Positions 7,078 through 31,524 of a DNA stretch of 33,911 nucleotides are shown in pieces. Made by a program: the position numbers and the translations under genes. Origin of the DNA: a virus; IMG/VR virus record IMGVR_UViG_3300008259_000351, positions 1 to 33,911 of that record; one strand, written 5' to 3'. The notes below the pieces were generated by a model. It saw only the letters and a list, made by a program, of their open reading frames with translations. It did no database searches and was not told the origin of the DNA. Numbering within the stretch: position 1 is the first letter of the stretch; each line of letters begins with the position of its first letter.

Positions 7078-7090
7078 TAGGTTGATGAAC

Positions 7091-7402
7091 ATGGCGTTTT
7101 CTGATTTTGACCCCCCGTCCTCATGGTATTCATCTCAGGAAGATATGGACAATGATTCCGAAGCCCAATTTGCATGGAATGATGCGAGACGTGCATCATT
7201 TTTGAGATGGTGGAGACAGCACAGGCTTATTGCAAGCGACTGGACCCAAATGCCGGATAGTCCTCTTTCTGCCGGAGTTAAGGAGGAGTGGCGCATCTAT
7301 AGGGAGTGGTTGCGAAATCTCCCAGCACAAATTGATTTGGAAAACGTTGAATTCATCTCATCACCAGGCGAAGAACTCGTAAATCCATGGAGCGCCAAGT
7401 AG
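7091..7402 (+). CDS. Phage tail assembly chaperone (Phage_tail_APC-like)
   Basis: The protein is about 100 residues. Its core 'RQHRLIASDWTQMPDSPLSA' followed by 'EEWRIYREWLRNLP' fits the phage tail assembly chaperone family (PF16778-type), which usually lies directly after a tail-fibre gene. It probably helps fold or trimerise the collar fibre just upstream. In-frame starts exist at 7082 (TTG), 7085 and 7091; I prefer 7091 because AGG at 7079-7081 is then well spaced and 'MAFSDFDPPSSW' is a natural N-terminus. The gene is followed six bases later by a halogenase-like gene. Confidence 0.7.
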   Translation: MAFSDFDPPSSWYSSQEDMDNDSEAQFAWNDARRASFLRWWRQHRLIASDWTQMPDSPLSAGVKEEWRIYREWLRNLPAQIDLENVEFISSPGEELVNPWSAK

Positions 7403-15340: not shown

Positions 15341-17002
15341 ATGGCGCAAAAGTTCCTCACAAATATTGACCTCAATCAGAACCAAATTGTCAATGCAACT
15401 TTTGAGGTACTTGCGAGCGACCCGGGAAGTGGAAACTTCGAAGGTCGTCTGATTTACAATAGCACCACAGACACTATTAAGGTATACGCAAATGGTGCAT
15501 GGCGTTCGTTATCGCATACCGTATCTGCCGGTGGCTCATATACTGATGCATTAACAGTTAGTGAGTCTAACGGAACGGTTACGCTCACTCTAAATCTTGC
15601 GGATACCGACAGTGCTGGTCTTCTGTCATCAACATTCTGGAACTTACTTGATAGTGCAACATCGGATGCTACCGCCAGCAAACTGGTAAAACGTGATGCG
15701 AGTGGCAATATCAAAGTTGCTGAACCGACCGATGCCGCACATGCCGCAACAAAGGGCTACGTCGACGGCGTACGTTCTGGACTAGATGTCAAACAATCCG
15801 TTCGTGTCGCCACCACGGCAGCGCTAACGCTCTCATCCGACCTAGAAAACGGCGATACGGTTGATGGCGTAACGCTCGCTACCGGTGACCGAGTCCTCGT
15901 CAAGAACCAGGATACCGCTTCCGAAAACGGCATCTATGTCGTCAAGGCATCTGGTGCGCCAGATAGGGCGACTGACGCTGATTCAAGCGCTGAAGTTACT
16001 GCTGGCATGTTCACCTTCGTTGCTGAAGGTACAGTGAACGGCGATAGCGGTTGGGTCCTGACGACAAACGACACAATCACACTTGGTACAACTGGTCTTG
16101 TATTTGCCCAATTCTCTGGCGCTGGCCAGATTGCTGCTGGTGATGGTCTCTCAAAGAGTGGCAATACTATAAATGTCGGCGCTGGAACTGGCATTACCGT
16201 CAATGCTGATACTGTCCAAATCTCGGCAACGTATGCTGGTCAATCCAGCATTACTACTCTGGGCACTGTCACTACTGGGACATGGAATGCAACTGCAATT
16301 GCAGTTGCCTACGGTGGTACTGGGGCTACCGATGCGGCAACTGCGAGAACAAACCTTGGACTTGCTATCGGCACTGATGTTCAGGCGTATGACGCTGAAC
16401 TAGCAGCACTTGCTGGTCTGACATCAGCGGCGAATAAACTGCCGTACTTCACTGGCTCTGGCACGGCAGCCCTCACTGACCTTACTTCCCAGGCGCGAGG
16501 ATTGTTGGATGACGCTAGTTATTCTGACATGCGTACGACGCTCGGTCTAGCAATTGGGACCGATGTCCAGGCCTATAACTCAACTCTTGCTGCTGTTGCC
16601 GGAGGTACATATACCGGTGATGACAGCATTACGACTGTTGGCACAATTACTAGCGGTGTCTGGAATGGCACCGATGTCGCAATTGCAGACGGTGGTACTG
16701 GCGCCAGCACTGCCGCTAACGCAAGAAATAATCTTGCAGAAACATCAGCAAGTGGTCTAACTACCAGCACTCCAACCCTGGCTCGTATTGCCTCTCAGGG
16801 CTGTGCGGCGTCAAGTGCTGGCGTGTCGAGTACTACGGTGGTGCACAACCTTGGAACCACTAGCGTTATTGTTCAGATATTTGAGGTAGCAACCGGCGCG
16901 ACTGTTTATGGTGATATTACACGCGACAATACAAACCAGGTGACAGTTGTTCTCAATGGCACTATTTCTCTCGGTGACTACAAGATTGTTGTAACTGGAT
17001 AA
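15341..17002 (+). CDS. Tail fibre protein with repeated shaft motifs
   Basis: The 553-residue protein starts '[20 protein letters not shown]', a common opening of phage fibres. It has a '[20 protein letters not shown]' segment (~140-160) and a '[20 protein letters not shown]' module (~175-195) shared with the gpI-like protein. A shaft follows with two copies of '[12 protein letters not shown]' and two 'GGTGA' turns with 'ATARTNL' / 'ANARNNL'. The C-terminus ('[20 protein letters not shown]') is a small beta domain like that of the 14990 gene. A GGAC sequence precedes the ATG by eight bases. It is likely a trimeric fibre subunit. Confidence 0.75.
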
Positions 17003-17010
17003 CAAATCAC

Positions 17011-17026
17011 TGACCTCGAGGGGTCA
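17011..17026 (+). other. Inverted repeat upstream of collagen-like fibre gene
   Basis: TGACC and GGTCA flank a six-base centre. The gap also holds GACCTC (17012-17017) and GAGGTC (17044-17049), which could pair across the ribosome binding region just before the GTG start. No T-run follows. It might form an RNA structure affecting translation or be chance. Confidence 0.3.
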
Positions 17027-17049
17027 CTTAACGTAGGGCGATTGAGGTC

Positions 17050-20000
17050 GTGGCGCAGAAATTTACAGTCCCCATTACAGTCAAGCAGTTATCATCTGCT
17101 GGTTCTGACGCCATAACGGTCTACGTTGATGCGGATACTTATGCTCGCCTCAAAATAGAGGCTGGCGGTCGCCTTGTATGGGGCCCTGGCGATGGTTCGT
17201 TGGACACAAATCTATATCGTGATGAAGCGAACGTCTTAAAAACTGATGACACATTCAAGGCATCGGCACTTTTCGTTGATGGAATAGAGATTGATACCTC
17301 GGGGGCGACGAGTGCACAGGCTCTTGTTTATGACGGAACAAAATTTGTTCCTACTACAGCAACTGGTCCTCAGGGGGCACAGGGGGCGCAGGGTGCACAG
17401 GGTCCACAGGGTGCGACTGGAGCACAGGGGGCAACTGGCCCTCAGGGGACACAGGGTCCACAAGGTGCAACGGGCGCACAGGGTGCACAGGGCCCACAGG
17501 GGACCGAAGGTGTCAATGGCATTTCCTCGGGAAGCGTTTTGTATCTTGATAGTGCAAATATTACGCAGACTGTTCCGTTTGCCGCCCCACAAACAACACT
17601 GCTTTTAATACCAAACACAAATACCCAAACAACAATAGTTACAAACACTATTTCCAGCACAGACATAGCAATCGCTGAATTTGTAACAGAACCAGACGAC
17701 TTGCTATCCACGGTGATTATTCCTGGTTTGTGGGCAATGAGCCTTTATGCGTTCCGTTCATCTGGCGGTGGCGACCTACTTTATTGGTTTGATATTCTAG
17801 AAGTTGCCTCTGATGGCACAACTGTTGTGGGAACGATTTACAACGGTACCGTTGCTAATGGCACGCCCATTGGAACAACCCAGGATGTATACATTCATAC
17901 TGCGTACATTGAGTCGTATACGCTGGCTAGTCTTTCTAGCAGAATAAAAATAGTTGTATATGCAAATTCAACTACATCTGCAAAAAATCTCACAATAGAA
18001 ATGCGTGGCAATACGCAGACAAATATTATTACAACAATCGCATCTAACTTAGTTGGCGAAACAGGACCTCAGGGAGCACAGGGCGCACAAGGCGCTCAAG
18101 GACCTCAGGGAGCACAAGGCCCTCAAGGCAACACGGGTTCTCAAGGCGCAACGGGAGCACAGGGACCACAGGGCGATATCGGACCTCAGGGCACCCAGGG
18201 ACCACAGGGTGATACCGGTGCACAAGGACCACAGGGAGCAACTGGTCCGCAGGGTCCCCAAGGAGCGCAGGGTGATACTGGCGCAACTGGTGCTCAGGGT
18301 CCGCAGGGTTCAATCGGCCCACAGGGAGAGACGGGTCCACAGGGTTCAACTGGACCTCAAGGTCCACAAGGGGCAACAGGCGCGCAAGGGGCTACTGGTG
18401 CGCAAGGCGCTCAGGGTGCCACGGGTCCACAGGGGGCGACTGGTGACACCGGACCTCAGGGTCCTCAGGGCGCTACCGGAGCGCAGGGTGCGACAGGACC
18501 TCAGGGTGCGACAGGAGCAGAGGGACCGCAGGGTCCACAGGGCGCAACTGGTCCACAAGGAGATACTGGCGCACAGGGCGCTGCCGGTGCGACGGGAGCG
18601 CAAGGTCCACAAGGCGCCACAGGACCCCAGGGCGCTACAGGCTCTCAGGGTGCTACAGGACCCCAAGGTCCGCAGGGCGATGTTGGTCCTCAGGGTGCAA
18701 CGGGCGCACAGGGTGCTACGGGCGCACAGGGAGCGCAAGGTGCGACCGGCCCACAAGGAGCAACTGGCGATGCCGGTGCACAAGGACCACAAGGAGCAAC
18801 CGGTGCTCAGGGCGCTCAAGGTACTCAGGGTCCCCAGGGTGTACAAGGAAACTTTGGTGGAGTTACATTCGACTACACCTTTGATTCCAATACCGCCCAG
18901 ACAGACCCCGGTACTGGGAAACTTAAGTTTGATAATGCATCACTGAACCTGTCAACCGAACTCGTCATTGACGATGTAGATGACAATTCAACGGATATTC
19001 AGTCATATTTACGAACCATCGATGACTCAACAAGCACCATCAAGGGTCACTTCAGGGTATCAAAGAAAGCAGATTCTTCTGCCTTTGCACTTTTCACAAT
19101 TTCTTCAATCAGTGAGGAAACTGGATTCTTTAGGGTTGTCTCGTCTTATGTAACTGGGTCAAGCACAACCCCATTTTCCAATAATGATGATGTCATCATC
19201 ACATTTGCACGGACTGGAGACGTTGGCGCACAGGGAGCAACTGGAGCACAGGGACCACAGGGTGCGACTGGTGCGCAAGGCGCGACTGGTGCTCAGGGTC
19301 CACAGGGAGACATTGGCGCTCAGGGGGCGAGTGGTGCTACGGGAGCACAAGGACCTCAAGGCGACATCGGTCCGCAGGGTGCGACCGGTGCACAGGGTGC
19401 CCAGGGGGCGACCGGACCCCAGGGCGCGACTGGACCTCAGGGTGCAACTGGTGCTCAGGGTGCAACTGGTGCTGAAGGTCCACAGGGACCCCAGGGAGCA
19501 ACAGGTCCCCAAGGGGCGCAAGGCGCTACTGGCGCAACGGGTGCGCAGGGTGCGACAGGACCTCAGGGACCACAAGGAGATGCAGGTCCACAGGGAGCAA
19601 CTGGGGCTACAGGTCCGCAGGGAGCAACTGGTCCACAAGGGGCGACGGGAGCACAAGGAGATGTCGGTCCTCAGGGACCGCAGGGTGCGACTGGAGCACA
19701 AGGCGCAACTGGGGCACAAGGTGCAACCGGCCCACAAGGGGATGCTGGTCCACAGGGTGCTACCGGCGCCACGGGCGCGCAAGGACCCCAAGGCGCAACC
19801 GGTGCTCAGGGAGCACAGGGGGCACAGGGCGCTACTGGTCCTGTTGCTGGTTCAGCAAACCAAGTCGTATATAAAGACGGCTCAAATAACCCCGCTGGTA
19901 GTTCTTCATTCACATACAACGGAACAGACCTATCTGTTGGTGGCAAGGTTCAATCAACTGCATCTTCTGGTGACGAAGGCGGAGAATTTTTCCTTGCCAA

Positions 20001-21252
20001 ACCGTCAACAAATACAACCCTTGATGGTGGTATCACTATTGATGCCTATCAAAACAAACTAAGGTTTTTTGAGCAAGGTGGTTCGGCAAGAGGCTTTTAC
20101 ATAGACATAACTGGCGGTGGTGCTGCAGCAAGCACCAACCTTCTTGCTGGAGTACAGGGTCCTCAGGGTGCCACTGGACCTCAGGGTGCCACTGGCGCGC
20201 AGGGTGCCACTGGCGCGCAGGGTGCCACTGGACCTCAGGGTGCCACAGGTCCCCAGGGTCCCCAAGGTGCGACAGGCCCACAAGGAACACAGGGTCCACA
20301 GGGTGCAACTGGCGCACAAGGGGCGACGGGTCCTCAAGGTACGCAAGGTCCACAGGGAGCAACTGGCGCACAAGGCGCACAGGGTGCCACAGGTCCTGTT
20401 GCTGGCTCTGCAAACCAGGTTGTTTACAAGGATGGCTCCAATAACCCCGCTGGTAGCGCAAATCTTACATTTGACGGAACACGCTTAACAGCAGCAGGAC
20501 TTACCGTTGATACGAATACTCTTTATGTTGATGCAACTAATAATCGTGTAGGCATTGGCACGACGTCACCAGCATCAGCGCTGGATGTTATCGGTACTGC
20601 AACAGTGCGTGTGGCGGCAACCCAAGATGGCGTTGCCCTTGCTGGTCGTGCTGGTGGGACAGGTACTTATGAAGTAACCCTTACTCCCACAACACTGACT
20701 GCTGATAGAACTCTTACCCTGCCAAATAAAACTGGAACAGTCGCTACAACTGGAGATATTGGCCTTGTTTATGTATCAAGCGGCACTTTCTCTGGGGCAA
20801 CGGTTGTCAATTTGCAGTCAATCTTTTCTGCAACCTACGACAACTACCGTCTTGTTTTAAGCAACCTACAAGCGGCAAGCGCAGATTTGTACCTTTTCTA
20901 CATAAATATGCTTTCTGGAAGTACTGCGGCAACAACTTCGTACTACTACGCAGTTCAAGGCCTTACATTTGGCGGAAGCGCTGACAACTACACTGGACAA
21001 AACTCAAGCATTGGGGTGTGCGGAGTTTTGTCAAACTCTGACGTTCATATAGTTATGGACATAACGCGTCCAAATGTTGCCGACAGAACGATTATTTCAG
21101 CACACTGCGCATCTGCGTTCGGTAACTACACGTCTGCCGTACAGCACACCACTGCCACTGCATATGATGGAATACAACTTAACGATTTCAGATTGGGCGC
21201 AAGCACCGTAAATCTTTCGGGAACGTGGAAACTCTACGGTTACACAAACTAA
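17050..21252 (+). CDS. Giant collagen-like tail fibre protein
   Basis: The 1400-residue protein starts with GTG. Its opening 'MAQKF' matches that of the preceding fibre gene and supports this start. It has four collagen-like Gly-X-Y blocks at residues about 106-156, 336-602, 723-932 and 1034-1117, together about 200 triplets, mostly GPQ, GAQ and GAT. Globular beta domains separate the blocks. After blocks 3 and 4 the same short module '[18 protein letters not shown]' recurs. The C-terminus has '[17 protein letters not shown]', typical of fibres, then a receptor-binding-like domain. No Peptidase_S74 chaperone is visible. Triple-helical blocks would form long rods. Proline is found only at the X position of triplets. 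Thr at Y could be O-glycosylated, as in Bacillus BclA. Likely a long trimeric fibre. Confidence 0.8.
17365..17517 (+). repeat. Collagen-like Gly-X-Y block 1
   Basis: About 17 consecutive Gly-X-Y codon triplets (nine-base period) encoding GPQ, GAQ, GAT and GTQ. It lies near the N-terminus of the giant fibre and is the shortest block. Confidence 0.9.
18055..18855 (+). repeat. Collagen-like Gly-X-Y block 2
   Basis: About 89 uninterrupted Gly-X-Y triplets, the longest block. Synonymous codons vary between units, so the protein repeat is more regular than the DNA repeat. Confidence 0.9.
19216..19845 (+). repeat. Collagen-like Gly-X-Y block 3
   Basis: About 70 uninterrupted Gly-X-Y triplets, ending in 'GATGPV' and leading into the first '[18 protein letters not shown]' module. 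Confidence 0.9.
20149..20400 (+). repeat. Collagen-like Gly-X-Y block 4
   Basis: About 28 uninterrupted Gly-X-Y triplets with several near-identical GGTGCCACTGG units at its start, followed by a second copy of the '[18 protein letters not shown]' module. Confidence 0.9.
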
Positions 21253-21832: not shown

Positions 21833-22621
21833 ATGGGAAAGTTTATCCGCGTCAATAACACCACAACTGGTATTAGTTTTGTTAGTGGAAGTTCTTCTGT
21901 TTCGTCGGATATTCTTGCACTTTCAAATCTTGTTGATGTACCAAATCCGATATATGGCTCTGCTGCCGATGGAACCATTTCCCTGGATGGCTCAAGTACT
22001 GTTTTATCAATGGCGCCATCGTCATCAGTCTATACAATGACTAGGGATATTTTTTGCTTCAATATAACGCTAGGCGATAATGTGCGACTCAATCCAGCCG
22101 GATATAGAATTTTTGTACAAAACACTCTTACGTTCGGTTCTGGGTCAACAATTGGGTTTACGTCTGGCTTTACAACTGCAGGCTCAATACAGCAAGGGGC
22201 GGCAGCACTATCTAGCGTTACTCATAGCCTTGGTGGTAATGGTGGTGGCTCTGGTGCGGGCACCGCTACTGCCCCAACCGCACTAACGGGTGGAACAAAT
22301 TATTACTATCAACCACTTCAAGCAGTTCGCGGCTTTTCCATAACTGGCTCTTCCACGACACCAACATTTCTTCGTGGTGGTGCTGGTGGTGCAACTGGAA
22401 CGGGTGGCGGTGTCGTAATACTTGCTGCACGATTTATTATAGTTTCTTCTGGAACCGCATACATTAAAGCCCCAGGTTCCACGGGGGGCGGGGGTGGTGG
22501 GGTCATTATAGTTATTTCCTCCGCAGCAACGCTCAACTCATCAATATCAACGGATGTTACTGGTGGCGGGGGCAGCCCATCGGCGGCAAGTGGTACTGTC
22601 ATATACTCTCAAGTTGCATAA
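21833..22621 (+). CDS. Glycine-rich fibre/adhesin without His-rich region
   Basis: The 262-residue protein has an N-terminal region with 'DIFCFNITLGDNVRLNPAGY' and 'RIFVQNTLTFGSGSTIGF', then Gly-rich turns (about 130-250, including 'PGSTGGGGGGVIIVISS'). The next gene has the same beginning and the same 'GG.(V/I)I(I/V)' ends, so the two are paralogues. The pattern suggests a beta-helix or solenoid with Gly-rich loops, as in tip adhesins (compare gp38-type Gly-rich receptor binders; this comparison is mine). It lies six bases after the preceding gene. Confidence 0.65.
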   Translation: MGKFIRVNNTTTGISFVSGSSSVSSDILALSNLVDVPNPIYGSAADGTISLDGSSTVLSMAPSSSVYTMTRDIFCFNITLGDNVRLNPAGYRIFVQNTLTFGSGSTIGFTSGFTTAGSIQQGAAALSSVTHSLGGNGGGSGAGTATAPTALTGGTNYYYQPLQAVRGFSITGSSTTPTFLRGGAGGATGTGGGVVILAARFIIVSSGTAYIKAPGSTGGGGGGVIIVISSAATLNSSISTDVTGGGGSPSAASGTVIYSQVA

Positions 22622-22623
22622 TC

Positions 22624-24342
22624 ATGGGCAATAGATTCCGCAGACTCAACAGAACCAAAGAACAACCGTCTGATTCCATTTTTGGTAGTGGCATTGACGG
22701 TGCATCTGTTATTGCCAATGGCACAACGGTTTACCTTACGGCGGATAAATATTTTACGAATCTTACCGTCGAGAGTGGTGCGACACTTTTTACGAATGGA
22801 TTTCGTATTTTTGTTAATGGCACGCTTACAAATAACGGAACAATAGGTTTTCCAAGCGGTGCAGCCCATAACGTTTCTGATGGAAGTGGAACCATTGCCG
22901 GGCGTGGAACTTCCCTAAACCCGCTCAATGCATGGGGAACAAGCAATTTCAGTATTTCCTCTACAGAAGTTCATGATATTGATGATGCCATTGCCGGGTG
23001 GTTTGTAAATTCTAGCGGAACAGTTAGCAAATTTACTGCTGGTTCGCTGGGTGCTACTGGAGCGACGGGGAGTACTACCCCTGCTGGTGCTGGTGGTGCA
23101 GGCAATGCAGGAACAGCACCGGGAGCAAATATTGGCGCGCCAGGTGGCGCTGGAAACCCAGGAAACCCGGGGAATGCCGCAACTGCTGGTACGGGTGGCG
23201 CTGGGGGCCTGGGTGGCGGTTTGGTAATTATTATCGCACGGACAGTCGCCGGTTCTGGAACGATTGTCAGTCAGGGCGTTGCCGGAAGTTCGGGCAATCC
23301 CTCAGTTGCTGGAAATGCAGGTAATCCAGGAACTTCAGCACCCAACCTTCCTGCATCCATCAATGCAGGGACACACCCCTCTGATGCACTTGCTGTGGCG
23401 CACAATGTCAACGGTCCGTTATCCCCGACACCAGGAAAAACGCATACAAGCACCTATAACCCACAAACACATAACCCAACCCATCATAATGCTGGGACAT
23501 ACCATCATCCTGGGGACTCCTTATTGGTGGTCGCGCCCCACAATGCGAACCCATACCACAATCCAACACACCACAATGCTGGTAATGGTTCACACTTTCA
23601 TCCGTCTGGCGGACATCACAGTGCACACAACCCAAATACCCATGTGTATTGGTCTAATCACAATGCCACAAGCAATGCTAATCATCATCCTGCTGGCAAT
23701 ACGCATGGCTCGCACCCATCAAATGGGCCAAGAAACTTCTCAAACCACAATGCGACAGTGAACCCAAGCAAGAACCATAATGCCGGGCACGGATACCATC
23801 ATCATCCATCTAGTCACCACGAAGGAAATCATAATTCGGGGCACGGACATCACCCACACCCATCTGGGCACCACACTGGTTCACATGCTGCTGGGGCAGC
23901 AAGACCATTCTCAAACCATAATGCAACAGTTAATGCATCAAATCAACAACACAACTCGGGATACCATTCACATCCTGCGGGTACTGACCCAGCGAATATT
24001 GGTCCATGGACTGGTGGACCAGCGGCACCAACCTTTAATTCCAATAAAAATAGCACCGTAAATGCATCAAATCTAAATGCATCCAATCTCCCATCTGGTC
24101 ACCATACCCATCCTGCCTCAAATCACAATGCTGGAGTTGCAGGAACAAGCCCACATACGGCATCCCACAATCCGCCCTACTTGGGTGGTACTGGCGGAGC
24201 AGCAGGAAATGCTGGCACCGCAAACCCTGGCGGAACTGGCGTCACCGGTAGCACTGGGGGAATTATAATAATTAGTCGCGATACGGGCAATGCCGCCAAT
24301 CAACTCGGTCACAGTAACTTTACGAAAATTTTGGATATTTAA
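22624..24342 (+). CDS. Histidine/asparagine-rich fibre or adhesin
   Basis: The 572-residue protein begins like its upstream paralogue ('KYFTNLTVESGATLFTNGFR', 'IFVNGTLTNNGTIGF') and ends with the same Gly-rich and 'IIIIS' region. Residues about 260-515 are an extraordinary insertion rich in His, Asn, Pro, Ser and Gly with many HxH and HHxH patterns and four partial copies of 'SNHNATVN'. Similar HxH patterns bind iron in T4 fibre tips, so metal binding is plausible. It could be a receptor-binding tip with a metal-loaded region. The insertion explains most of the length difference to the 262-residue paralogue. The starting ATG lies three bases after the upstream stop. Confidence 0.65.
   Translation: MGNRFRRLNRTKEQPSDSIFGSGIDGASVIANGTTVYLTADKYFTNLTVESGATLFTNGFRIFVNGTLTNNGTIGFPSGAAHNVSDGSGTIAGRGTSLNPLNAWGTSNFSISSTEVHDIDDAIAGWFVNSSGTVSKFTAGSLGATGATGSTTPAGAGGAGNAGTAPGANIGAPGGAGNPGNPGNAATAGTGGAGGLGGGLVIIIARTVAGSGTIVSQGVAGSSGNPSVAGNAGNPGTSAPNLPASINAGTHPSDALAVAHNVNGPLSPTPGKTHTSTYNPQTHNPTHHNAGTYHHPGDSLLVVAPHNANPYHNPTHHNAGNGSHFHPSGGHHSAHNPNTHVYWSNHNATSNANHHPAGNTHGSHPSNGPRNFSNHNATVNPSKNHNAGHGYHHHPSSHHEGNHNSGHGHHPHPSGHHTGSHAAGAARPFSNHNATVNASNQQHNSGYHSHPAGTDPANIGPWTGGPAAPTFNSNKNSTVNASNLNASNLPSGHHTHPASNHNAGVAGTSPHTASHNPPYLGGTGGAAGNAGTANPGGTGVTGSTGGIIIISRDTGNAANQLGHSNFTKILDI
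23400..24170 (+). repeat. Degenerate His/Asn-rich repeats
   Basis: The region encodes repeated units built around 'SNHNATVN' followed by His/Pro-rich stretches. Copies start near 23652, 23737, 23912 and 24040. At DNA level it is CA-rich with many CAC/CAT and AAT codons. Confidence 0.6.
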
Positions 24343-24343
24343 A

Positions 24344-24793
24344 ATGGAACGCATAGTTTTTTGTCCGACTGATGGAGATATTGAATCGGCTCGCGCGCTT
24401 GCACGACAATGGTGCTTGCCAATTCAGGTTGGTCAGTCCGAAAGAACAAATGGCATGACCCTAAACGGCGTATCAGTAATCTCTGTTCCAGAAGAAATTT
24501 ATGTTGACTATTTTTCTCCTGTTGCAGAAAATCAAATATGGACTTTCATTTTCGTGGACGACTTCTCTGGGTGTGACGAAGTTGAGGCGGAACTTCTTGA
24601 ATGCGATAATGAGATGTACATAAAACGGCGTATTGGTATGATGAAACCATCAGTACGCGAAAGTCACAAAATTACATTTTCTCATCGTTTTACAAAAGAG
24701 GGGCTTTATGTTTTGCGCCTCTTGCGCAATGGGGATGAGTTGTGCAAGAATGAAATTGAAGTGCATAAAGATACAAGGAGACAAATGCGATGA
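24344..24793 (+). CDS. Hypothetical protein, first gene of accessory cassette
   Basis: The 149-residue protein opens 'MERIVFCPTDGDIESARALA', contains an acidic middle ('FIFVDDFSGCDEVEAELLEC') and ends in a beta-rich region ('EGLYVLRLLRNGDELCKNEI') like an Ig-like domain. An upstream in-frame ATG at 24290 would overlap the fibre gene by 53 bases, so I prefer 24344, one base after the stop. I recognise no family. Position at the head of a run of enzyme genes suggests a linker between fibre and enzyme genes. Its stop overlaps the next start by four bases. Confidence 0.5.
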   Translation: MERIVFCPTDGDIESARALARQWCLPIQVGQSERTNGMTLNGVSVISVPEEIYVDYFSPVAENQIWTFIFVDDFSGCDEVEAELLECDNEMYIKRRIGMMKPSVRESHKITFSHRFTKEGLYVLRLLRNGDELCKNEIEVHKDTRRQMR

Positions 24794-25038
24794 CTTTTTT
24801 TAGTTCAATATCAACGGAGCGCAAGTTGCATGCAATTGATGCCCGTCTTCTGGGCGTAAAAGAGCAATTATATTCAGTTCTTGTCACAACTGGACTAAAC
24901 CCAGACGAACTTAATATGGAAACATTCAATCCCGAAACGGACTTGCCTGAAAATTCAACCTCGTTGACTGATGACGTTCAGCGACTCCTTGCTCTCATTG
25001 AGCAAATTGAACTTCTGCGTACAGAGATTGCTGGATGA
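24790..25038 (+). CDS. Small helical protein, paralogue A
   Basis: The 82-residue protein is predicted helical with a leucine-rich C-terminus. It contains 'YSVLVTTGLNPDELNMETF', a motif resembling segments in the 25703 ('QLLVVGLNPDNIEELT') and 28941 ('DAALSAGVNPESLTM') genes. The three are probably paralogues of one small family, each placed just before an enzyme gene; here the oxygenase gene begins one base after the stop. Function is unknown. An enzyme partner or adaptor is possible but is only inferred from position. Confidence 0.55.
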   Translation: MTFFSSISTERKLHAIDARLLGVKEQLYSVLVTTGLNPDELNMETFNPETDLPENSTSLTDDVQRLLALIEQIELLRTEIAG

Positions 25039-25039
25039 G

Positions 25040-25543
25040 ATGAAGACAAAAACACACGGAATCGCCATTGTTGAGTATGCAAATGCTTTTGAATCGGTCA
25101 CTAGGGCGCGAACATCCATGTCATGTGAACTCATGCCACTTGGAGCAAATGACATAGCAATCGAGCGCGTACTTCCACTTGCTGAAGCATGGAACGAAGT
25201 GTGGAAACAGATTGACCCATGTGTTTGGGATTACAGGAACACCTTTGAACTTGACCTACAGGCAGATGAGGGATATCGCGTTTTGAAGTATGGTGGTGGC
25301 GCTGAATACCACGCACACCATGACCACTACCACTCCAACGCCAGGTCGCTGAGTCTTGTCGCTTTCCTAAATGACGATTTCACTGGTGGTGAATTAGTTT
25401 TTCCGAGGTTTGACGTAACGATAAAACCACAGAAGGGAAGCATTATTTTCTTCCCCTCCAATTTTCCTTACCTTCACATTGCTCAACCCGTTGGCCTCAA
25501 CGACAGTACCGTCAAGTACTCATTGGTAACGTGGTTCAGATGA
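25040..25543 (+). CDS. 2-oxoglutarate/Fe(II) oxygenase, prolyl 4-hydroxylase-like (1)
   Basis: The 167-residue protein has the double-stranded beta-helix signature of P4H-like 2OG-Fe(II) oxygenases. 'VLKYGGGAEYHAHHDHYHS' (81-99) contains the HxD iron ligands (His93, Asp95). Then come 'LSLVAFLNDDFTGGELVFPR', 'GSIIFFPSNFPYLHIAQPV' with the distal His146, and 'VKYSLVTWF' with Lys159 as the likely 2OG-binding residue. The reaction couples 2OG decarboxylation to hydroxylation, classically of peptidyl-proline. I choose ATG 25040 because it follows the upstream stop by one base; ATG 24971 would overlap that gene by 68 bases. Such enzymes are common in cyanophages. The substrate is unknown; the collagen-like fibre is a candidate. 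Confidence 0.8.
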   Translation: MKTKTHGIAIVEYANAFESVTRARTSMSCELMPLGANDIAIERVLPLAEAWNEVWKQIDPCVWDYRNTFELDLQADEGYRVLKYGGGAEYHAHHDHYHSNARSLSLVAFLNDDFTGGELVFPRFDVTIKPQKGSIIFFPSNFPYLHIAQPVGLNDSTVKYSLVTWFR

Positions 25544-25713
25544 GTCCTGAAGAGGAATCAGTAGTAGAAGAAGAGGTTGATAGTTCATATGTTCCTTCAA
25601 TTGGTAGATATATACCAACGGGAATTGACCCATCATCCCCAGCCCCATTCTGTACGTTCACTGACTTGTTGCCGGTGGTTGTGAAAGTAGAGGAAGACGA
25701 AGATGACCTATAA
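25540..25713 (+). CDS. Small acidic protein
   Basis: The 57-residue protein has acidic ends ('PEEESVVEEEVDSSY' and 'VKVEEDEDDL') around a central proline-containing part ('GRYIPTGIDPSSPAPF'). The ATG overlaps the oxygenase stop by four bases, and its own end overlaps the next gene by 11 bases, so it is embedded in the enzyme operon. I recognise no family. It could be a disordered accessory or linker. Confidence 0.45.
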   Translation: MSPEEESVVEEEVDSSYVPSIGRYIPTGIDPSSPAPFCTFTDLLPVVVKVEEDEDDL

Positions 25714-25972
25714 CTTACAGAAAGACTTTGAGTACCATAGGGATAATCTCTTTGCTCAGTTGCTCGTTGTTGGATTAAATCCTGACAATATTGAAGAACT
25801 AACAATTAGCGATGTTCTTGCGGCATGTAAGACTTTGTATGGGTCGGCGACATATGATGAGTCGAGCCCTACTGACATGGCCCGACACGCATCACTACGA
25901 CGTGCACAAATGAATTTGCGGAGATTTTGGTATTTCTACCACCTCCTGAAATGGAGAATAAATAATGCCTAA
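25703..25972 (+). CDS. Small helical protein, paralogue B
   Basis: The 89-residue helical protein has 'FAQLLVVGLNPDNIEELT' in common with paralogues A (24790) and C (28941). Its C-terminal half is richer in Arg and aromatics ('RRAQMNLRRFWYFYHLL'). It overlaps the acidic gene by 11 bases and the next gene by 8 bases. It precedes the methyltransferase-like and halogenase genes, continuing the pattern of one such small protein before each enzyme group. Function is unknown. Confidence 0.5.
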   Translation: MTYNLQKDFEYHRDNLFAQLLVVGLNPDNIEELTISDVLAACKTLYGSATYDESSPTDMARHASLRRAQMNLRRFWYFYHLLKWRINNA

Positions 25973-26690
25973 CATGCAGCCTACATCATATGATGTTTTT
26001 GAATTTTCGCTAGCAATGAGCAATATCACCGGAATTGCATACGACTCAACAGAAGCATCACAATTCTGCCAATCACTGCTCCAGGAAGAAATATCATCCA
26101 CAGTTGACAGGAGTAGATTGGCGCTGGGGACTATGGTTTCCCTGAATTTTGCAGATTTGCTATCTGACCCAAATAGCATTGCGCATCATGCTGCCGGAAT
26201 GGGTGCCCTGCTGCTCGAAATGACAATACGTCTTTCGCGACCACAGACCGTTCTTTTTGGACCATTCGCTTACCGTGGTCTTGACATCAATCATGCAACT
26301 CTTCAGGAAGTCAATGTTTCACGGGTGGATATTATGAATGCGCCAAATCTTGATTACGCAGAAAGGTTTTGGGGCCTGGAGATTAATGAAGACCACCTAG
26401 TCTTGCAACAGGACATTCAGTCGGGAACTGTTGGCAAAACATACGACTTGATATCTCTATATCTTGAAACAGTTATGCACGACGATAACGTCCTCTTGAA
26501 TCTTGCCGAAATGCTTAATCCCGGCGGAACAATGTTTCTCATGGGAACTTCAGATTCTGGGGCAATTTATGTTCACAAGGATGCTCATCCATTTCATCAT
26601 CCACACGAACTTCTCAAGTCACAGACAAACTTAAAACTGTTTTTTATCCCAGTTGGTCTTGGCTATACGATAGTCACAAAATCATTATGA
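25965..26690 (+). CDS. Methyltransferase-like protein (C-terminal half recognisable)
   Basis: The 241-residue protein has a C-terminal half resembling class I SAM-dependent methyltransferases: 'KTYDLISLYLETVMHDDNVL' (~159-178) followed by 'LAEMLNPGGTMFLMG', the usual motif around strands 4 and 5. The N-terminal half lacks a visible GxGxG SAM-binding motif; 'TVLFGPFAYRGLDINHATL' stands roughly there. It may be a degenerate or inactive methyltransferase-fold protein. A ribosome binding site, GGAGA at 25953-25957, fits ATG 25965. Its stop overlaps the halogenase start by four bases, so the pair is probably translated together. Confidence 0.5.
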   Translation: MPNMQPTSYDVFEFSLAMSNITGIAYDSTEASQFCQSLLQEEISSTVDRSRLALGTMVSLNFADLLSDPNSIAHHAAGMGALLLEMTIRLSRPQTVLFGPFAYRGLDINHATLQEVNVSRVDIMNAPNLDYAERFWGLEINEDHLVLQQDIQSGTVGKTYDLISLYLETVMHDDNVLLNLAEMLNPGGTMFLMGTSDSGAIYVHKDAHPFHHPHELLKSQTNLKLFFIPVGLGYTIVTKSL

Positions 26691-28153
26691 AAAAAATAGT
26701 CATCGTTGGTTCTGGCACCGCTGGCCTCGTTGCTGGGCACATCATCAGGAGTCTCTTTCCTGGTTATGAAGTGCTGATTGTTTCTTCCGAGCAAATAGGC
26801 ATTATCGGCGTCGGGGAAGGCTCAACTGAGCATTGGCGCATTTTCCAGAACATAGCGAATATATCAGTTGACGACATGGTCCGAAATGCAGACATCACCC
26901 ATAAGTATGGGATTCGCTACGAGGGATGGACACACCATACCCCAGACTATTTCCACAGTGTTGGTGGAACTGGCCCATCATCTGGAACATTTATGGCCGG
27001 TTATGCATATGCATTAATGAACGATAAACAATTAACGCCAACGTTCTCATGGAGAGGTTTAACCGACAATAAGGTTATCGACCAAGGAAAAGATACACAC
27101 CTCGGAACCAATCAATATCATTTTGATACATTCAAATTAAATAATTATCTTCGTGCTATTGCTTCCAATAAAGGAATTCATCTCATTGATGATGAGGTTA
27201 TTGACGTTATCGTCGACGACTATGGATATATAAATAGGTTGGAACTTAAAAGCGGTACATCTATCAATGGTGACTTTTTTATTGATGCTTCTGGATTTCA
27301 TCGTATTCTGCTTTCTAGGTTAACTGATAACGAATTCATCTCGTATCGCAAATATCTGCCATGTGATAGTGCGATTGCCTTCCCAACCCCACCTGACCCG
27401 TCTGGGCAAATTCGTCCATACACACGAGCGCGTGCCATGTCCAGTGGATGGATGTGGGAGATACCAACCCAGCAGCGCCGAGGTAATGGCTACGTATTTT
27501 CGTCAGATTTTTGTTCTATTGATGATGCTATTGCAGAAGCATCGCGTGTTCATGGATTCGAGGTGGAGCCAGCAAAGGTTCTGAATTTCAAGTCCGGCTA
27601 CTTCAAGACAACATGGAAAAATAATTGTTTCGCCATAGGCCTTGCTGCTGCTTTTGTTGAACCGCTAGAGGCAACATCAATATCTACGACAATCCAACAA
27701 GTGCGCCTGCTTTGTTCATATCTCCCAACGTTCAGCCCCCAACGACAGTATGGAATCAAGGAATATCATCGCATTATTGATTCAGTCATGGAAAATATTT
27801 TATGCATGATTTCACTTCACTATATTTCGGACAGAGATGACACCCCAATGTGGAGAGCCCAAAAAGAAACACCGTTACCGCCACTGCTCGAACACCTCCT
27901 ACAACTCTGGAATGAAAGATGTCCTGAGATACACGACGTACCTTCTACTGGCTTTGAGTTATTTGCCGCTCCGCACCTATGGCATGTAGCACAAGGCCAG
28001 GGTGTACTCAATAAAGAAGTGGCAGAGATTCAATTAATGAACTACAATTCATTAATAGATGTACGCAAATTTATTTCCAATTACTCACAGACACTACTTT
28101 CCACAAAGTTGATTGACCATGCAGAAGCGCTTGCAAGAACTAAAAATAGTTGA
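26687..28153 (+). CDS. Flavin-dependent (tryptophan-type) halogenase, full length
   Basis: The 488-residue protein has all recognised motifs: FAD-binding GxGxxG 'VGSGTAG' (7-13), 'GVGEGSTEHW' (41-50), Lys73 in 'THKYGIRYEGW' at the place of the catalytic Lys, the exact WxWxIP motif 'WMWEIP' (255-260) that separates halogenases from monooxygenases, and 'EPLEATS' (325-331) with the catalytic Glu. Length fits the family. It would halogenate an aromatic such as Trp, Tyr or a small phenol or indole using FADH2 from a reductase. No flavin reductase is seen in the window, so the host would have to supply it. It sits in the accessory enzyme cassette. The precise substrate is unknown. Confidence 0.85.
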   Translation: MKKIVIVGSGTAGLVAGHIIRSLFPGYEVLIVSSEQIGIIGVGEGSTEHWRIFQNIANISVDDMVRNADITHKYGIRYEGWTHHTPDYFHSVGGTGPSSGTFMAGYAYALMNDKQLTPTFSWRGLTDNKVIDQGKDTHLGTNQYHFDTFKLNNYLRAIASNKGIHLIDDEVIDVIVDDYGYINRLELKSGTSINGDFFIDASGFHRILLSRLTDNEFISYRKYLPCDSAIAFPTPPDPSGQIRPYTRARAMSSGWMWEIPTQQRRGNGYVFSSDFCSIDDAIAEASRVHGFEVEPAKVLNFKSGYFKTTWKNNCFAIGLAAAFVEPLEATSISTTIQQVRLLCSYLPTFSPQRQYGIKEYHRIIDSVMENILCMISLHYISDRDDTPMWRAQKETPLPPLLEHLLQLWNERCPEIHDVPSTGFELFAAPHLWHVAQGQGVLNKEVAEIQLMNYNSLIDVRKFISNYSQTLLSTKLIDHAEALARTKNS

Positions 28154-28934
28154 AGCGAATGCCTTCAACAATATTAAAAAAATAAAACCGAATGAAATAC
28201 TTCTTTCTCCAGCGTCTGCAATGTTGCTTGATGATTCGTGTCGTCCATATGTAAATTTGGGCAACTGGCCAGAGTGGTGGAAACAACTGCAGGGTAATGA
28301 GGGTAGTCTAAAAAGGTGCTCTGGGACTTCCGATTATCTTGCTACAGGGATAACAATTCCTCTGTGGGCCAATTTGCATTTCCGCCCATCTCTCGATGGC
28401 AAAAATTGGCAGGCCAAATTTGACCTTACTAATAACTTGGGAGATTTTGGAATAGAGGGATTTAGTTATTCGCAGACGGGCGAATGCCCTGTTTCACGAG
28501 TCAAAAAGATGCCCGAATCCAATTACATCAAAGTTATTAATCCATGGCTAGTGAAAACACCCCCGGGATGGTCGTCGTTATTCCTTCCCCCATTATGGGA
28601 CCCTAATCCAAATTACACAATGCTTCCAGCGGTAGTAAATACCGACTATTACCATACGGCGAATATGGTTATTAATATACTCACCGATGAACCATTTGAA
28701 CTTGAAACAGGACGACCAATGTGGCATGTTGTGCCTTTTCCGCGAACCAAGCAGTGGAATATTGTCTGGGGTGGCGAGAGCATCTATTCTCTGCTTAGGT
28801 GGCGCGGTTTTGGTGGTACGTTTTTCCCCAAAAACCAGAAAAGCAAGTATAAGAAGATGCAGCGAGAAGTCGATGCCGACCTGGAGTCTCATCGTGTTAG
28901 TTTTATTGATAAAATACTAAATAGAAGGGGATGA
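28119..28934 (+). CDS. DUF6065-like protein
   Basis: The protein is about 271 residues. Conserved-looking blocks are 'LGNWPEWWKQLQGNEGSLKR', 'GITIPLWANLHFRP', 'INPWLVKTPPGWSSLFLPPL' and 'NTDYYHTANMVINILTD', ending in 'GRPMWHVVPFPR'. These resemble a family of unknown function (DUF6065 as I recall it) in phages and bacteria, with a jelly-roll-like character. The start at ATG 28119 overlaps the halogenase by 35 bases, suggesting translational coupling. An earlier TTG at 28113 is less likely. The family name is from memory; function is unknown, but it is tightly linked to a halogenase here. Confidence 0.55.
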   Translation: MQKRLQELKIVEANAFNNIKKIKPNEILLSPASAMLLDDSCRPYVNLGNWPEWWKQLQGNEGSLKRCSGTSDYLATGITIPLWANLHFRPSLDGKNWQAKFDLTNNLGDFGIEGFSYSQTGECPVSRVKKMPESNYIKVINPWLVKTPPGWSSLFLPPLWDPNPNYTMLPAVVNTDYYHTANMVINILTDEPFELETGRPMWHVVPFPRTKQWNIVWGGESIYSLLRWRGFGGTFFPKNQKSKYKKMQREVDADLESHRVSFIDKILNRRG

Positions 28935-28940
28935 TGTTTT

Positions 28941-29180
28941 ATGGATTTTTCTCTAACACCGCAAGACAAAATAAGAATCAGGCAAATGGCGCGCCAGAAA
29001 CTGGAACTTGAACTATTTGATGCAGCGCTTTCTGCTGGGGTTAACCCCGAATCACTAACAATGATTGACGGTGAATTCACATGGCAGCCAGAGACAACAC
29101 AGGCAGCATACTCCGACTCGGCGCAGTCACGACTTAGAGATATATTGAATGTCTACGAGGCTTTTCTAAAACACGAATAA
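28941..29180 (+). CDS. Small helical protein, paralogue C
   Basis: The 79-residue protein has 'LFDAALSAGVNPESLTMI', parallel to paralogues A and B, and a C-terminal helix 'RLRDILNVYEAFLKHE'. A GGGG sequence lies ten bases upstream of the ATG. It precedes the second prolyl-hydroxylase-like gene by 11 bases. As for A and B, a partner role for the neighbouring enzyme is plausible only by position. Confidence 0.5.
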   Translation: MDFSLTPQDKIRIRQMARQKLELELFDAALSAGVNPESLTMIDGEFTWQPETTQAAYSDSAQSRLRDILNVYEAFLKHE

Positions 29181-29191
29181 GAGAAGGATAA

Positions 29192-29854
29192 ATGAACCCC
29201 TCATTCTACTGGCCCGCCAGCAAATCCTCTGCAATTATGGTTGCTGAGGATATTATAAATTCCGATGTTTGCGACGGAATTATTAGAGAGTGCGGTTTAT
29301 ATTATTCATCACTATTCTCTCCAGGTCCAGTTGTTAGTGGCATATTCCCATCAATTAAAAGCAGCATGGACTTCAACTGGTCAGAAGATGTGTTGCGTTC
29401 TGTCGGCGTTCCGCATGGTCCGTTGACGACGTATGAACATGAAGTCGTCTCAAGTCTTTGGGTCGCCATTGCTTACTACAGAGAAAACTTTCGTTGGCTG
29501 TGGGATTGGGAAGGGATGTGTGACACGGGCTTTCGGCTACAGCACTACAAGCGTGGGATTGGCCATTATCGCGAGCATATTGATGGTGGTCCTGGAGAAA
29601 GTGCAGTATCGGCAAGAATGCTAGGGGTTGTTATCTACCTCAATACTGTTGATGTCGGCGGAAGTACATTTTTCCGCGAACATGATATCCATGTTCCAGC
29701 AAAAAGGGGTTCAATTGCTATTTTCCCCGCCAACTGGACACACCCACACCAGGGGTGCGTTCCATTATCTGGTGATAAGTGGATAGTTAGTACGTTCATA
29801 CTCAAGCCATCACAAGATGGGATATTAGAGACGGGCAATGAACACCTTTTATGA
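29192..29854 (+). CDS. 2-oxoglutarate/Fe(II) oxygenase, prolyl 4-hydroxylase-like (2)
   Basis: The 220-residue protein has a P4H-like core: 'QHYKRGIGHYREHIDGGPG' contains HxD (His129, Asp131). Then come 'LGVVIYLNTVDVGGSTFFRE', 'GSIAIFPANWTHPHQGCV' with the distal His (184 or 186), and 'KWIVSTFIL' with Lys196 as the probable 2OG contact. The N-terminal ~110 residues are the helical family-specific lead. A strong ribosome binding site (AGAAGGA) precedes the ATG by three bases. It is longer than the 167-residue copy at 25040 and distant from it in sequence. It overlaps the next oxygenase by 17 bases. The substrate is unknown. Confidence 0.8.
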   Translation: MNPSFYWPASKSSAIMVAEDIINSDVCDGIIRECGLYYSSLFSPGPVVSGIFPSIKSSMDFNWSEDVLRSVGVPHGPLTTYEHEVVSSLWVAIAYYRENFRWLWDWEGMCDTGFRLQHYKRGIGHYREHIDGGPGESAVSARMLGVVIYLNTVDVGGSTFFREHDIHVPAKRGSIAIFPANWTHPHQGCVPLSGDKWIVSTFILKPSQDGILETGNEHLL

Positions 29855-30464
29855 CCCATTGACCAATCGCATCTTAACCAAGCGTCCTGATGCATATCTG
29901 ATAGATGAGGTATTTTCTGAAGATGATTTTGCAATATTATTAACACAGTTATCTTCTATTGAAGATTCAATGGCCCTTCCATACGATAGATGGTTTGGGA
30001 GATTTGGTCTTAATAGCACTGATAGGAGATGCCCTGAACTGCTGTCTAATTATCACGACAAGTTATTGCCGCTTGCTAGAAAATTATTTAGTCCAACGCT
30101 AGAACCATCGTATTGCCTGTGGGCTTCATATCGTGGATATCGTGCACAACTTCCGAAACACATAGATGATAACGCCTGTACCTATACGATTGACCTATGC
30201 CTATCTCATGTCGCACCATGGTCTATTTACATTGAGGGTAAGGAATTGATACCATACCCGAACCAAGCAGTTGTCTATTATGGTGAGGACCAGTATCACT
30301 GGCGAGAAGCATTCACCGAACCCAATAAAAATCGTGTAGATATGATTTTCTTTCACTTTGTGGAACCGCAGCATTGGTGGTTTACGAAAGGGCCACAATA
30401 CATAGACAAAATAACCAATGACAGAGATTCATATCAAAAGAATAAAGGAATGAGGCGGCAATAA
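29838..30464 (+). CDS. 2-oxoglutarate/Fe(II) oxygenase-like protein (divergent, 3)
   Basis: The 208-residue protein has a more distant beta-helix core: 'AQLPKHIDDNACTYTIDLCL' gives HxD (His108, Asp110), followed by 'PNQAVVYYGEDQYHWREAF' with the distal His154, and 'NKNRVDMIFFHFV' with Arg166 instead of Lys as the likely 2OG contact. Iron ligands appear intact, so it may be active but on another substrate. Its start lies inside the previous gene (17-base overlap), and its stop overlaps the next ATG by one base. Classification is less sure than for the two P4H-like copies. Confidence 0.65.
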   Translation: MNTFYDPLTNRILTKRPDAYLIDEVFSEDDFAILLTQLSSIEDSMALPYDRWFGRFGLNSTDRRCPELLSNYHDKLLPLARKLFSPTLEPSYCLWASYRGYRAQLPKHIDDNACTYTIDLCLSHVAPWSIYIEGKELIPYPNQAVVYYGEDQYHWREAFTEPNKNRVDMIFFHFVEPQHWWFTKGPQYIDKITNDRDSYQKNKGMRRQ

Positions 30465-30754
30465 TGAATTATGTATTTATTACTAAAATTCGCAATGCCA
30501 TTCAAGAACTATCAAAGCCAGAGTATTGGAATAAGCCAAACACCGTGGAGGCATGGGGATTTATCACAAAGTTAGCAATTATTTTTCCAGGTCTTCTTTT
30601 TGGAAAACAGTGGTGGTGGCTTTATATTTTCGCCATTATATCCAGCATTTCTCTTATATGGTCTTCAACACATAAAACTTTGCCGACTATTATTCTTTTC
30701 AACGTTGCCTGGGTAATCCTGGCAACCACTGCGATTGCGAAACACTTCCTATGA
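30464..30754 (+). CDS. Small membrane protein
   Basis: The 96-residue protein has two clear hydrophobic segments (about residues 50-67 and 74-92) and a possible third at 33-46, with a polar N-terminus. No signal peptidase site is visible. The TAATG and ATGA overlaps bind it to the oxygenase before and the glycosyltransferase after. It might anchor the glycosyltransferase or be another membrane factor such as a lysis accessory. No family is recognised. Confidence 0.55.
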   Translation: MNYVFITKIRNAIQELSKPEYWNKPNTVEAWGFITKLAIIFPGLLFGKQWWWLYIFAIISSISLIWSSTHKTLPTIILFNVAWVILATTAIAKHFL

Positions 30755-31524
30755 TTTCTATCATCACGCCAACGTACAATACACCCCAGGACATTCTTGC
30801 CCGAACATGGGGCTCCCTTAAGTCACAAACATTCACGGACTGGGAATGGGTTGTATGGGATGACTCCACGCATAACGAAACCTGGCGACAAATCTACGGT
30901 TTCTGCTCCGATGAACGGTACAGGATTCAAATGCATCGTTCGCATGTTCACTCTGGCTCTATCGGCGAGGTGAAGCGGAATGGTTTCATGGTTGCTAAGG
31001 GTGACATTCTGGTCGAATTGGACCACGACGACGAATTAACCCCCGATGCGCTTCAACTGATTAACGATGCATTTAATGAGAATCCGGATGTAGGGTTTGT
31101 CTACTCCGACTGGTGCGAAATCCTCCCTGATGGGCAGTCAGGGCGCTACCCAGATGGGTGGGCATTTGGGTATGGCAGTGACTATTGGGACGACGAGCAT
31201 GGCGTGTGGACAATGCGTGCGCCAGAACTCAATACCGTGACCATGCGACATATCGTTTCGGCACCCAATCACGTTCGGGCGTGGAGGGCGGACGTTTATC
31301 GTGCTCTCAACGGACATGACTGGACACTCAAGGTGGCGGACGACTATGACTTATGTGTTAGGACGTTCTTAGCAACGGAATGTTTGCATATACCGAAAAT
31401 GATTTACAAGCAGTACATATCACCCAATACTGCCCAGCGGCAACACAATGCCATGATTCAAGAGAATGTCGCAATTATTGCGGACAAGTACAAAGACTAT
31501 CTTGATAGCCGATTTGGACAGTAA
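30751..31524 (+). CDS. Family 2 glycosyltransferase (GT-A)
   Basis: The 257-residue protein starts 'MISIITPTYNTPQDIL', the typical nucleotide-sugar-binding strand of GT2, with 'WEWVVWDDST' and the DxD-type motif 'LVELDHDDELTPDAL' (Asp91 and Asp93/94) for metal and UDP-sugar binding. The C-terminal part ('NHVRAWRADVYRALNGHD', 'VADDYDLCVRTFL') supplies the acceptor-side ED/DD motif. It is the last gene of the accessory cassette and overlaps the membrane protein by four bases. It might glycosylate a phage protein, for example Thr-rich collagen triplets, or modify a cell glycan. The acceptor is unknown. Confidence 0.8.
   Translation: MISIITPTYNTPQDILARTWGSLKSQTFTDWEWVVWDDSTHNETWRQIYGFCSDERYRIQMHRSHVHSGSIGEVKRNGFMVAKGDILVELDHDDELTPDALQLINDAFNENPDVGFVYSDWCEILPDGQSGRYPDGWAFGYGSDYWDDEHGVWTMRAPELNTVTMRHIVSAPNHVRAWRADVYRALNGHDWTLKVADDYDLCVRTFLATECLHIPKMIYKQYISPNTAQRQHNAMIQENVAIIADKYKDYLDSRFGQ

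Follow-up and report, generated by a model that had tools for sequence, protein, structure and literature searches.

Viral halogenases are widespread, and one of them, VirX1 of cyanophage Syn10, is a characterised iodinating biocatalyst that is active as a halogenase in vitro (PMC8407142). The roles so far suggested for viral halogenases concern metabolites (PMC7824862), antibiotics (PMC2984593) and changes to host metabolites. More specifically, a halogenated-metabolite cluster has been proposed in the jumbo cyanophage S-SSM6a (PMC7824862). A literature search for a halogenase with a phage tail fibre, protein halogenation or virion modification found no proposal that a phage halogenates its own adhesin.

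The locus described here lies in IMG/VR virus record IMGVR_UViG_3300008259_000351, whose 33,911 nucleotides are hereafter called the window. It encodes a halogenase, HAL, of the same family as VirX1 (HAL profile match 6.5e-65). The VirX1 gene is CPUG_00131, which matches chain 6qgm of PDB 6QGM over its full length (E=0). Its context also resembles that of HAL: Gly-rich genes of the tail-fibre region lie immediately upstream, and a D6065 homologue (E 2.6e-16) comes next. Unlike VirX1, HAL falls in a separate clade and is paired with two Gly-rich adhesin-like proteins, HISFIB and FIB218, and with the oxygenase OX1; none of these three had a match among the searched Syn10 neighbour genes. To our knowledge, VirX1 has no established natural substrate. 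With the S-SSM6a cluster, the window shares a halogenase plus 2OG oxygenases in one phage gene cluster, whereas the carbamoyltransferases, HemK-like methylase and sugar phosphatases of S-SSM6a went unrecognised in the window cassette in family profile scans.

The halogenase cassette and its upstream partners

A sequence-only reading of the window had proposed an enzyme cassette at 24344–31524. The cassette is genuine: closely packed open reading frames (ORFs), all on the plus strand, fill this interval, with structural genes on either side. Four-base overlaps join the methyltransferase-like gene to HAL and TM96 to GT2, OX2 and OX3 overlap by 17 bases, and OX3 and TM96 have one base in common.

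HAL (26687–28153), called a full-length flavin-dependent halogenase from the outset, matches PF04820 (Trp_halogenase) at 2.6e-105 over profile positions 1–451 of 458, and PHROG 2928 ‘tryptophan halogenase’ at 1.7e-97. It contains the GxGxxG motif, catalytic Lys, WxWxIP motif and catalytic Glu of flavin-dependent halogenases. Across 45 homologues G8/G10/G13, K73, W255, E258-I259-P260 and E328 are invariant, and W257 nearly so; from alignments we take K73 and E328 to be the counterparts of the catalytic Lys and Glu of RebH and PrnA. In a comparison aimed at the C-terminal Trp-binding region of free-tryptophan halogenases, the best aligned stretches with PrnA, RebH and Thal stop at profile position 396–415 of 491. 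Judged by family and catalytic residues, HAL is a predicted flavin-dependent halogenase.

Three 2OG-Fe(II) oxygenase-like proteins had been noted, and two are clear by Pfam: OX1 (24971–25543; PF13640, 6.8e-15; H116, D118, H169) and OX2 (29192–29854; PF13640, 4.6e-9). The weaker third, OX3 (29838–30464), found no match in the Pfam search; its match to PHROG 2954 (8.5e-14) and an HxD...H pattern seen by eye make it a probable divergent 2OG-type oxygenase. D6065 (28113–28934, ATG likely at 28119) keeps its DUF6065 label as a weak one: the window protein matched nothing in Pfam, DUF6065 (PF19541) included, and 5 of 39 aligned homologues match that family (best E 0.0025). Three of the 39 match dUTPase (best 1.1e-4), with profile matches otherwise at E 0.05–0.9, and a Foldseek comparison relates the predicted structure to the dUTPase fold at E about 3e-4 and a TM by query length of about 0.3. 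The methyltransferase label of the protein at 25965–26690 is also retained as weak, a single member matching PF13489 at E 0.063, short of the curated cut-off. The glycosyltransferase and membrane-protein calls stand: GT2 (30751–31524) matches PF00535 at 3.5e-17, and TM96 (30464–30754) is a small, very hydrophobic protein with one clear transmembrane-like segment.

Four small proteins complete the interval. The ORF of g24290 opens at 24290 with its start likely at 24344 (24344–24793), and it has no family match in Pfam or PHROG. An 82-aa protein follows at 24790–25038, where many relatives have an ORF of similar size. An 89-aa protein (25703–25972) gave no Pfam or PHROG match above noise, and a 79-aa protein lies at 28941–29180.

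Fibre genes had been placed on both flanks. Upstream they are present, as Gly-rich adhesin-like genes and a collagen-repeat protein; the downstream genes are small and of phage structural type. The interval as first drawn also omits the region 21833–24342, where the plus-strand genes FIB218 (21833–22621) and HISFIB (22624–24342) are the conserved upstream partners of the enzymes, and it omits HAL2 (7409–8587, plus strand), a divergent second halogenase-family protein (PHROG 2928, 1.3e-62). HAL2 lies near a collar-domain tail fibre (5203–7077) and adjoins a tail-fibre-assembly protein (7082–7402); its relatives are scarce, at 7 loci.

A fibre and enzyme block across phage backbones

Divergent IMG/VR contigs conserve the unit FIB218 - HISFIB - OX1 - HAL - D6065, usually opened by F21450 (21450–21827, plus strand; PHROG 20100, 4.5e-7), a small structural-type protein of 125 aa. 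Our main count covers 35 non-redundant HAL-anchored loci: HISFIB and FIB218 are each found in 32, OX1 and D6065 each in 31, and F21450 in 27. Recurrence of this core in dozens of divergent contigs is beyond chance, and the conserved co-occurrence with fibre genes that the sequence-only reading had named as a check is found, with one adhesin-like protein, HISFIB, as the usual companion. The exceptions, L017, L019 and L025, carry a protein of 28–32% Gly upstream of an HxD-motif ORF and HAL. The remaining genes vary among contigs: homologues of g24290 occur in 25 of the 35 loci, TM96 in 23, OX2 in 19, the methyltransferase-like gene in 15, OX3 and the 79-aa protein in 14 each, and the rare GT2 in 6. 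What had been drawn as one cassette comprises a conserved core of OX1, HAL and D6065, with the methyltransferase-like gene, OX2, OX3 and GT2 as accessory genes.

Searches anchored elsewhere gave a similar result. HAL was present in 67/67 FIB218-anchored loci with room for it, and in 63/63 loci of a first HISFIB-anchored set and 40/51 of a more distant one. HISFIB lies 0.5–2.4 kb upstream of HAL in most loci. A D6065 profile scan of genome contigs returned three MAG contigs only, each with OX1, HAL and D6065.

The block is present in phages of at least two capsid types. Among 40 contigs, an HK97-type capsid matched strongly in 11 and weakly in 11. T4 gp23 was absent from all 40 in a search run with a positive control, which speaks against the close relatives having a T4-type backbone, and PsbA (PF00124), sought as a cyanophage marker, was found in none of them. 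Distance correlations with HAL over 20 contigs were 0.91 for D6065, 0.84 for OX1 and 0.81 for HISFIB, against 0.16 for the capsid, and in a larger set 0.84 for D6065, 0.65 for HISFIB, 0.64 for FIB218 (which thus follows HAL as closely as HISFIB does), 0.43 for F21450 and 0.35 for TM96; such correlation is not proof of function, because linked genes co-transfer regardless of role. On these comparisons, the block moves between phage backbones, with fibre and enzymes exchanged together.

Cultured cyanophages present a mixed picture. Where the halogenase is linked to fibres, as in Syn9 and Syn10, proteins of 21–36% Gly lie upstream of the HAL relative. A related halogenase lies away from fibres in the cultured phages Syn1, Sf-CH11, S-PM2, S-B64, S-MbCM6, S-RIM44, S-SSM7 and HTVC008M; such genes in cultured cyanophages sit beside talC, hli or psbA genes or between terminase genes, and that of S-SSM7 is surrounded by carbamoyltransferases and sugar genes. 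The earlier suggestion that the enzymes decorate fibres gains from the co-occurrence seen in IMG/VR and loses some ground to these distant relatives, whose halogenases are about 29–33% identical and which show in part the arrangement, enzymes far from fibre genes, that it had named as counting against it.

HISFIB as a candidate substrate

Composition and position point to an adhesin role for HISFIB. It carries a variable His/Asn-rich insert of 314 aa (23242–24183, plus strand; 15.6% His, 15% Asn), with boundaries set by simple Gly-motif rules. The sole 31-base array from a tandem-repeat search lies at 24059–24089, close to the 3' end of the insert. Similar architecture is described for the gp38 adhesins of PP01 and S16 (PMC12892980): S16/T2/PP01-type gp38 combines a beta-helix with a polyglycine-II sandwich bearing hypervariable loops, and HISFIB has a conserved N part, then Gly-rich runs and a variable segment. 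This sequence-based likeness is one of working only. Neither HISFIB nor FIB218 matches Pfam, and an AlphaFold2 model of FIB218 (pLDDT 87) has no PDB fold match at E<=1, so identification of either as gp38 was set aside. FIB218 is similar to collagen-like proteins of giant viruses (BFVD).

Histidine content tends to go with the presence of HAL. HISFIB is His-rich in 97 of 105 non-redundant cases with HAL, eight HAL-bearing HISFIBs being His-poor, against 0/7 without HAL, an association that reflects two independent losses only (sign test p 0.5). Six of the seven HAL-less proteins are Tyr-rich instead, and PF04820 is absent from the searched contigs that encode them. The Nereis jaw protein Nvjp-1 offers a precedent, a Gly/His-rich structural protein described as halogenated (PMC13120676). 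It shares its Gly/His-rich composition with HISFIB and, unlike HISFIB, is an animal protein. We know of no common descent between the two, nor of any enzyme precedent for halogenation of protein His by a flavin-dependent halogenase.

Fibre hydroxylation in its canonical form fares less well. A collagen-repeat fibre of 1400 aa (17050–21252) lies upstream of the block, and Pro occupies the Gly-X-Y ‘Y’ position in 0/206 of its triplets (47/3917 in relatives). With X-Pro-Gly sites absent from this fibre, canonical collagen prolyl-4-hydroxylation is unlikely.

Specific linkage, movement between backbones, a His-rich HISFIB with HAL, the retained flavin-dependent halogenase catalytic set, the Gly-rich proteins in the exceptional loci and the Nvjp-1 precedent together suggest, short of proof, chemical modification of the attachment protein by the phage that encodes it. 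Our preferred explanation, which we hold at about even odds, is that HISFIB above all is the adhesin on which the enzymes act, ahead of virion assembly. HISFIB, with its companion FIB218, would be a virion adhesin co-inherited with enzymes that modify it inside the infected cell, while it is still unassembled. Hydroxylation of side chains would fall to OX1. HAL, drawing on reduced flavin from the host, would act on electron-rich rings by halogenation or another oxidation, insert His being the favoured target and Tyr the second; none of the scanned window proteins was recognised as a flavin reductase. D6065, with its putative dUTPase-like fold, would serve as a partner, and the accessory oxygenases, methyltransferase-like protein and GT2 may add variable decorations in some lineages. 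Possible benefits include toughness, metal binding or a change in how the receptor is bound. We offer only tentatively, as a possibility, the more specific idea that tailed phages halogenate (and hydroxylate) the adhesin's His/Asn-rich variable region with dedicated co-inherited enzymes, and that adhesin maturation is the natural role of VirX1-type enzymes.

Competing explanations and significance

The enzymes might instead serve to produce or alter a small halogenated metabolite, for instance a toxin or a signalling molecule, or to decorate surface molecules of the host such as capsule or LPS, their position in the host-recognition region being incidental. Precedents include the proposed metabolite cluster of a jumbo cyanophage (PMC7824862), the antibiotic protection proposed for cyanophage prnA (PMC2984593) and pelagimyophage host-recognition islands, whose glycosyltransferases are believed to change the surface of the host (PMC7029224); the setting of the S-SSM7 halogenase and the GT2 of the window fit as well. 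We nevertheless consider this account unlikely: GT2 occurs in only 6 of the 35 loci and HISFIB in 32, no NRPS, carrier protein or other scaffold-making enzyme was recognised in the cassette by family profile scans, and fibre and enzymes are exchanged jointly between backbones.

A different possibility keeps the adhesin as substrate and changes the chemistry. QhpG and GoxB act on protein side chains, and QhpG is a halogenase-related protein-modifying monooxygenase; HAL could likewise work as a flavin monooxygenase, with side chains as the target of oxidation. Its profile similarity to QhpG (6.8e-6) and GoxB (0.005) is weak and far short of cut-offs, and everything else that points to the adhesin as substrate holds equally here. 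Against this version, which we regard as distinctly improbable, HAL keeps WxWxIP and the Lys and Glu found in true halogenases, and its relative VirX1, whose gene neighbourhood is similar, is an active halogenase in vitro (PMC8407142). Least probable, in our view, is the absence of any functional link, with a metabolic cargo block hitch-hiking beside the fibre at an insertion hotspot and its enzymes acting elsewhere. The off-fibre positions of related cyanophage halogenases, beside talC, hli or psbA or between terminase genes, favour it, but one specific adhesin accompanies HAL in nearly all examined IMG/VR loci, and the genes of the block travel together.

Modification of the adhesin by the co-inherited enzymes has the advantage of a specific candidate substrate, supplied by the conserved genetic link of a halogenase to one adhesin-like protein. 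If it is true, protein halogenation would join the means by which phages tailor their attachment proteins, and the block would be a source of enzymes for large protein substrates.

Composition and gene order of the halogenase module

The sequence-only reading had described a cassette of enzyme genes at 24344-31524 of the window, an IMG/VR virus record of 33,911 bases, and this cassette is present at those coordinates. Pfam and PHROGs bear out its family calls for the flavin-dependent halogenase (HAL), two of the 2OG-Fe(II) oxygenases (OX1-OX3) and the GT2 glycosyltransferase, but the methyltransferase-like call (MT-like) is weak. The oxygenase call for OX3 is based on a PHROG match, and the DUF6065-like call for D6065 holds through its relatives only. 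TM96, the small membrane protein, is strongly hydrophobic.

We scanned viral contigs with HAL as the query and compared the best 80 loci (44-72% identity), labelling them by automated gene calls followed by BLAST and HMM searches. One gene order was seen again and again in these loci: F21450 (a small structural-type protein), FIB218 (a Gly-rich protein), HISFIB (a Gly-rich, adhesin-like protein with a His/Asn-rich insert), small genes, OX1, HAL and D6065. Among 35 non-redundant HAL-anchored loci, FIB218 and HISFIB were each present in 32, and OX1 and D6065 each in 31. The remaining genes were found in fewer of these loci: TM96 in 23, OX2 in 19, MT-like in 15, OX3 in 14 and GT2 in 6.

To test the HAL link from the opposite side, we anchored scans on HISFIB, FIB218 and D6065, again considering the best 80 matches of each. 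HAL was found in every locus with room for it, both in the HISFIB scan (63/63) and in the FIB218 scan (67/67), of 74 labelled D6065 loci, 69 had HAL as well as HISFIB, and a more distant HISFIB query returned 40 loci with HAL and 11 without; because each scan covers its best 80 matches and the same contigs recur in several scans, these counts are not mutually independent. That HAL and HISFIB belong to a module inherited as a unit is well supported.

The FIB218 model (21833-22621; pLDDT 87) had no match in the PDB, and in BFVD its predicted fold resembles collagen-like proteins of the giant viruses Pandoravirus and Orpheovirus (E 6e-12 to 6e-10). The D6065 model (pLDDT 88) bears a weak resemblance to dUTPases. 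The window also encodes a 1400-aa collagen-repeat protein (17050-21252), in which X is mostly Ala or Pro, Y is mostly Gln or Thr, and Pro never occurs at Y.

HISFIB as the proposed substrate

HISFIB has a conserved N-terminal part and a Gly-rich C-terminal part; between the two come Gly-rich runs and then a variable insert. The insert in the window (23242-24183) contains 15.6% His and 15% Asn. In most loci HISFIB lies 0.5-2.4 kb upstream of HAL and has the highest His content of any protein of at least 150 aa. Among 56 inserts that could be delimited by rule, Trp is missing from 17, Tyr from one and His from none. A contig from an Actinomycetota MAG (L245) starts with a 304-aa ORF whose His content is 20%; OX1, HAL and D6065 come next.

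HISFIB is His-rich in 97 of 105 cases with HAL versus none of seven without it, a contrast that goes back to only two independent losses. The main group without HAL has inserts rich in Tyr and Asn rather than His. No PF04820 (Trp_halogenase) match was found on eleven HAL-lacking contigs, each searched whole. On ten contigs (L312, L316, L318, L320, L321, L345, L347, L348, L349 and L362), oxygenase and D6065 homologues adjoin a His-poor HISFIB homologue and the contig carries no halogenase; those HISFIB proteins that we read contain Tyr/Asn-rich repeats such as GNNYSYPG.

Cultured phages, backbones and a second halogenase

Cultured phages show both arrangements. The halogenase lies directly behind tail-fibre and Gly-rich genes in the six cyanophages Syn9, Syn10, S-SZBM1, S-WAM1, P-TIM40 and P-RSM6, five of which have annotated 2OG oxygenases downstream of it; in eight other cultured phages it is placed elsewhere. 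The second of the Syn10 halogenases is the characterised VirX1. In S-SRM01 (L089), a halogenase is directly followed by a Gly-rich adhesin (16494-17582) that is annotated as a gp37-gp38 tip complex and bears a Trp/Cys-rich segment. The IMG/VR module HALs group in a single supported clade when 84 halogenase sequences are placed in one tree, and on this tree the fibre-linked label, assigned by reading gene neighbourhoods, requires three changes.

A capsid-family search of forty contigs returned PF05065 matches in a strong group of 11 and a weak group of 11; T4 gp23 matched none of the forty, but did match all three T4-like control phages. HAL distances agree far more closely with those of D6065, OX1 and HISFIB than with those of the capsid. 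In a larger set, HAL distances correlated with D6065 at 0.84, HISFIB at 0.65 and FIB218 at 0.64, and with the neighbouring control genes F21450 and TM96 at 0.43 and 0.35; part of such correlations comes from physical linkage alone.

The window encodes a second, divergent halogenase-family protein, HAL2 (7409-8587), whose gene comes after one for a collar-domain fibre and one for a tail-fibre-assembly protein. HAL2 forms a deep branch of its own in the halogenase tree and carries WMFVIP, versus WMWEIP in HAL. The assembly protein directly precedes the HAL2 homologue in all four relatives (L268-L271), and the collar fibre is present in L269 and L271, the two loci that reach far enough upstream.

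Interpretation

Published proposals for viral halogenases involve metabolites (PMC7824862), antibiotics (PMC2984593) and modification of host metabolites; in the literature we searched, we found no prior proposal linking a halogenase to an adhesin. The best explanation of the module, to which we give about an even chance of being correct, is that it modifies HISFIB. That this modification would be halogenation of the adhesin is a less certain reading.
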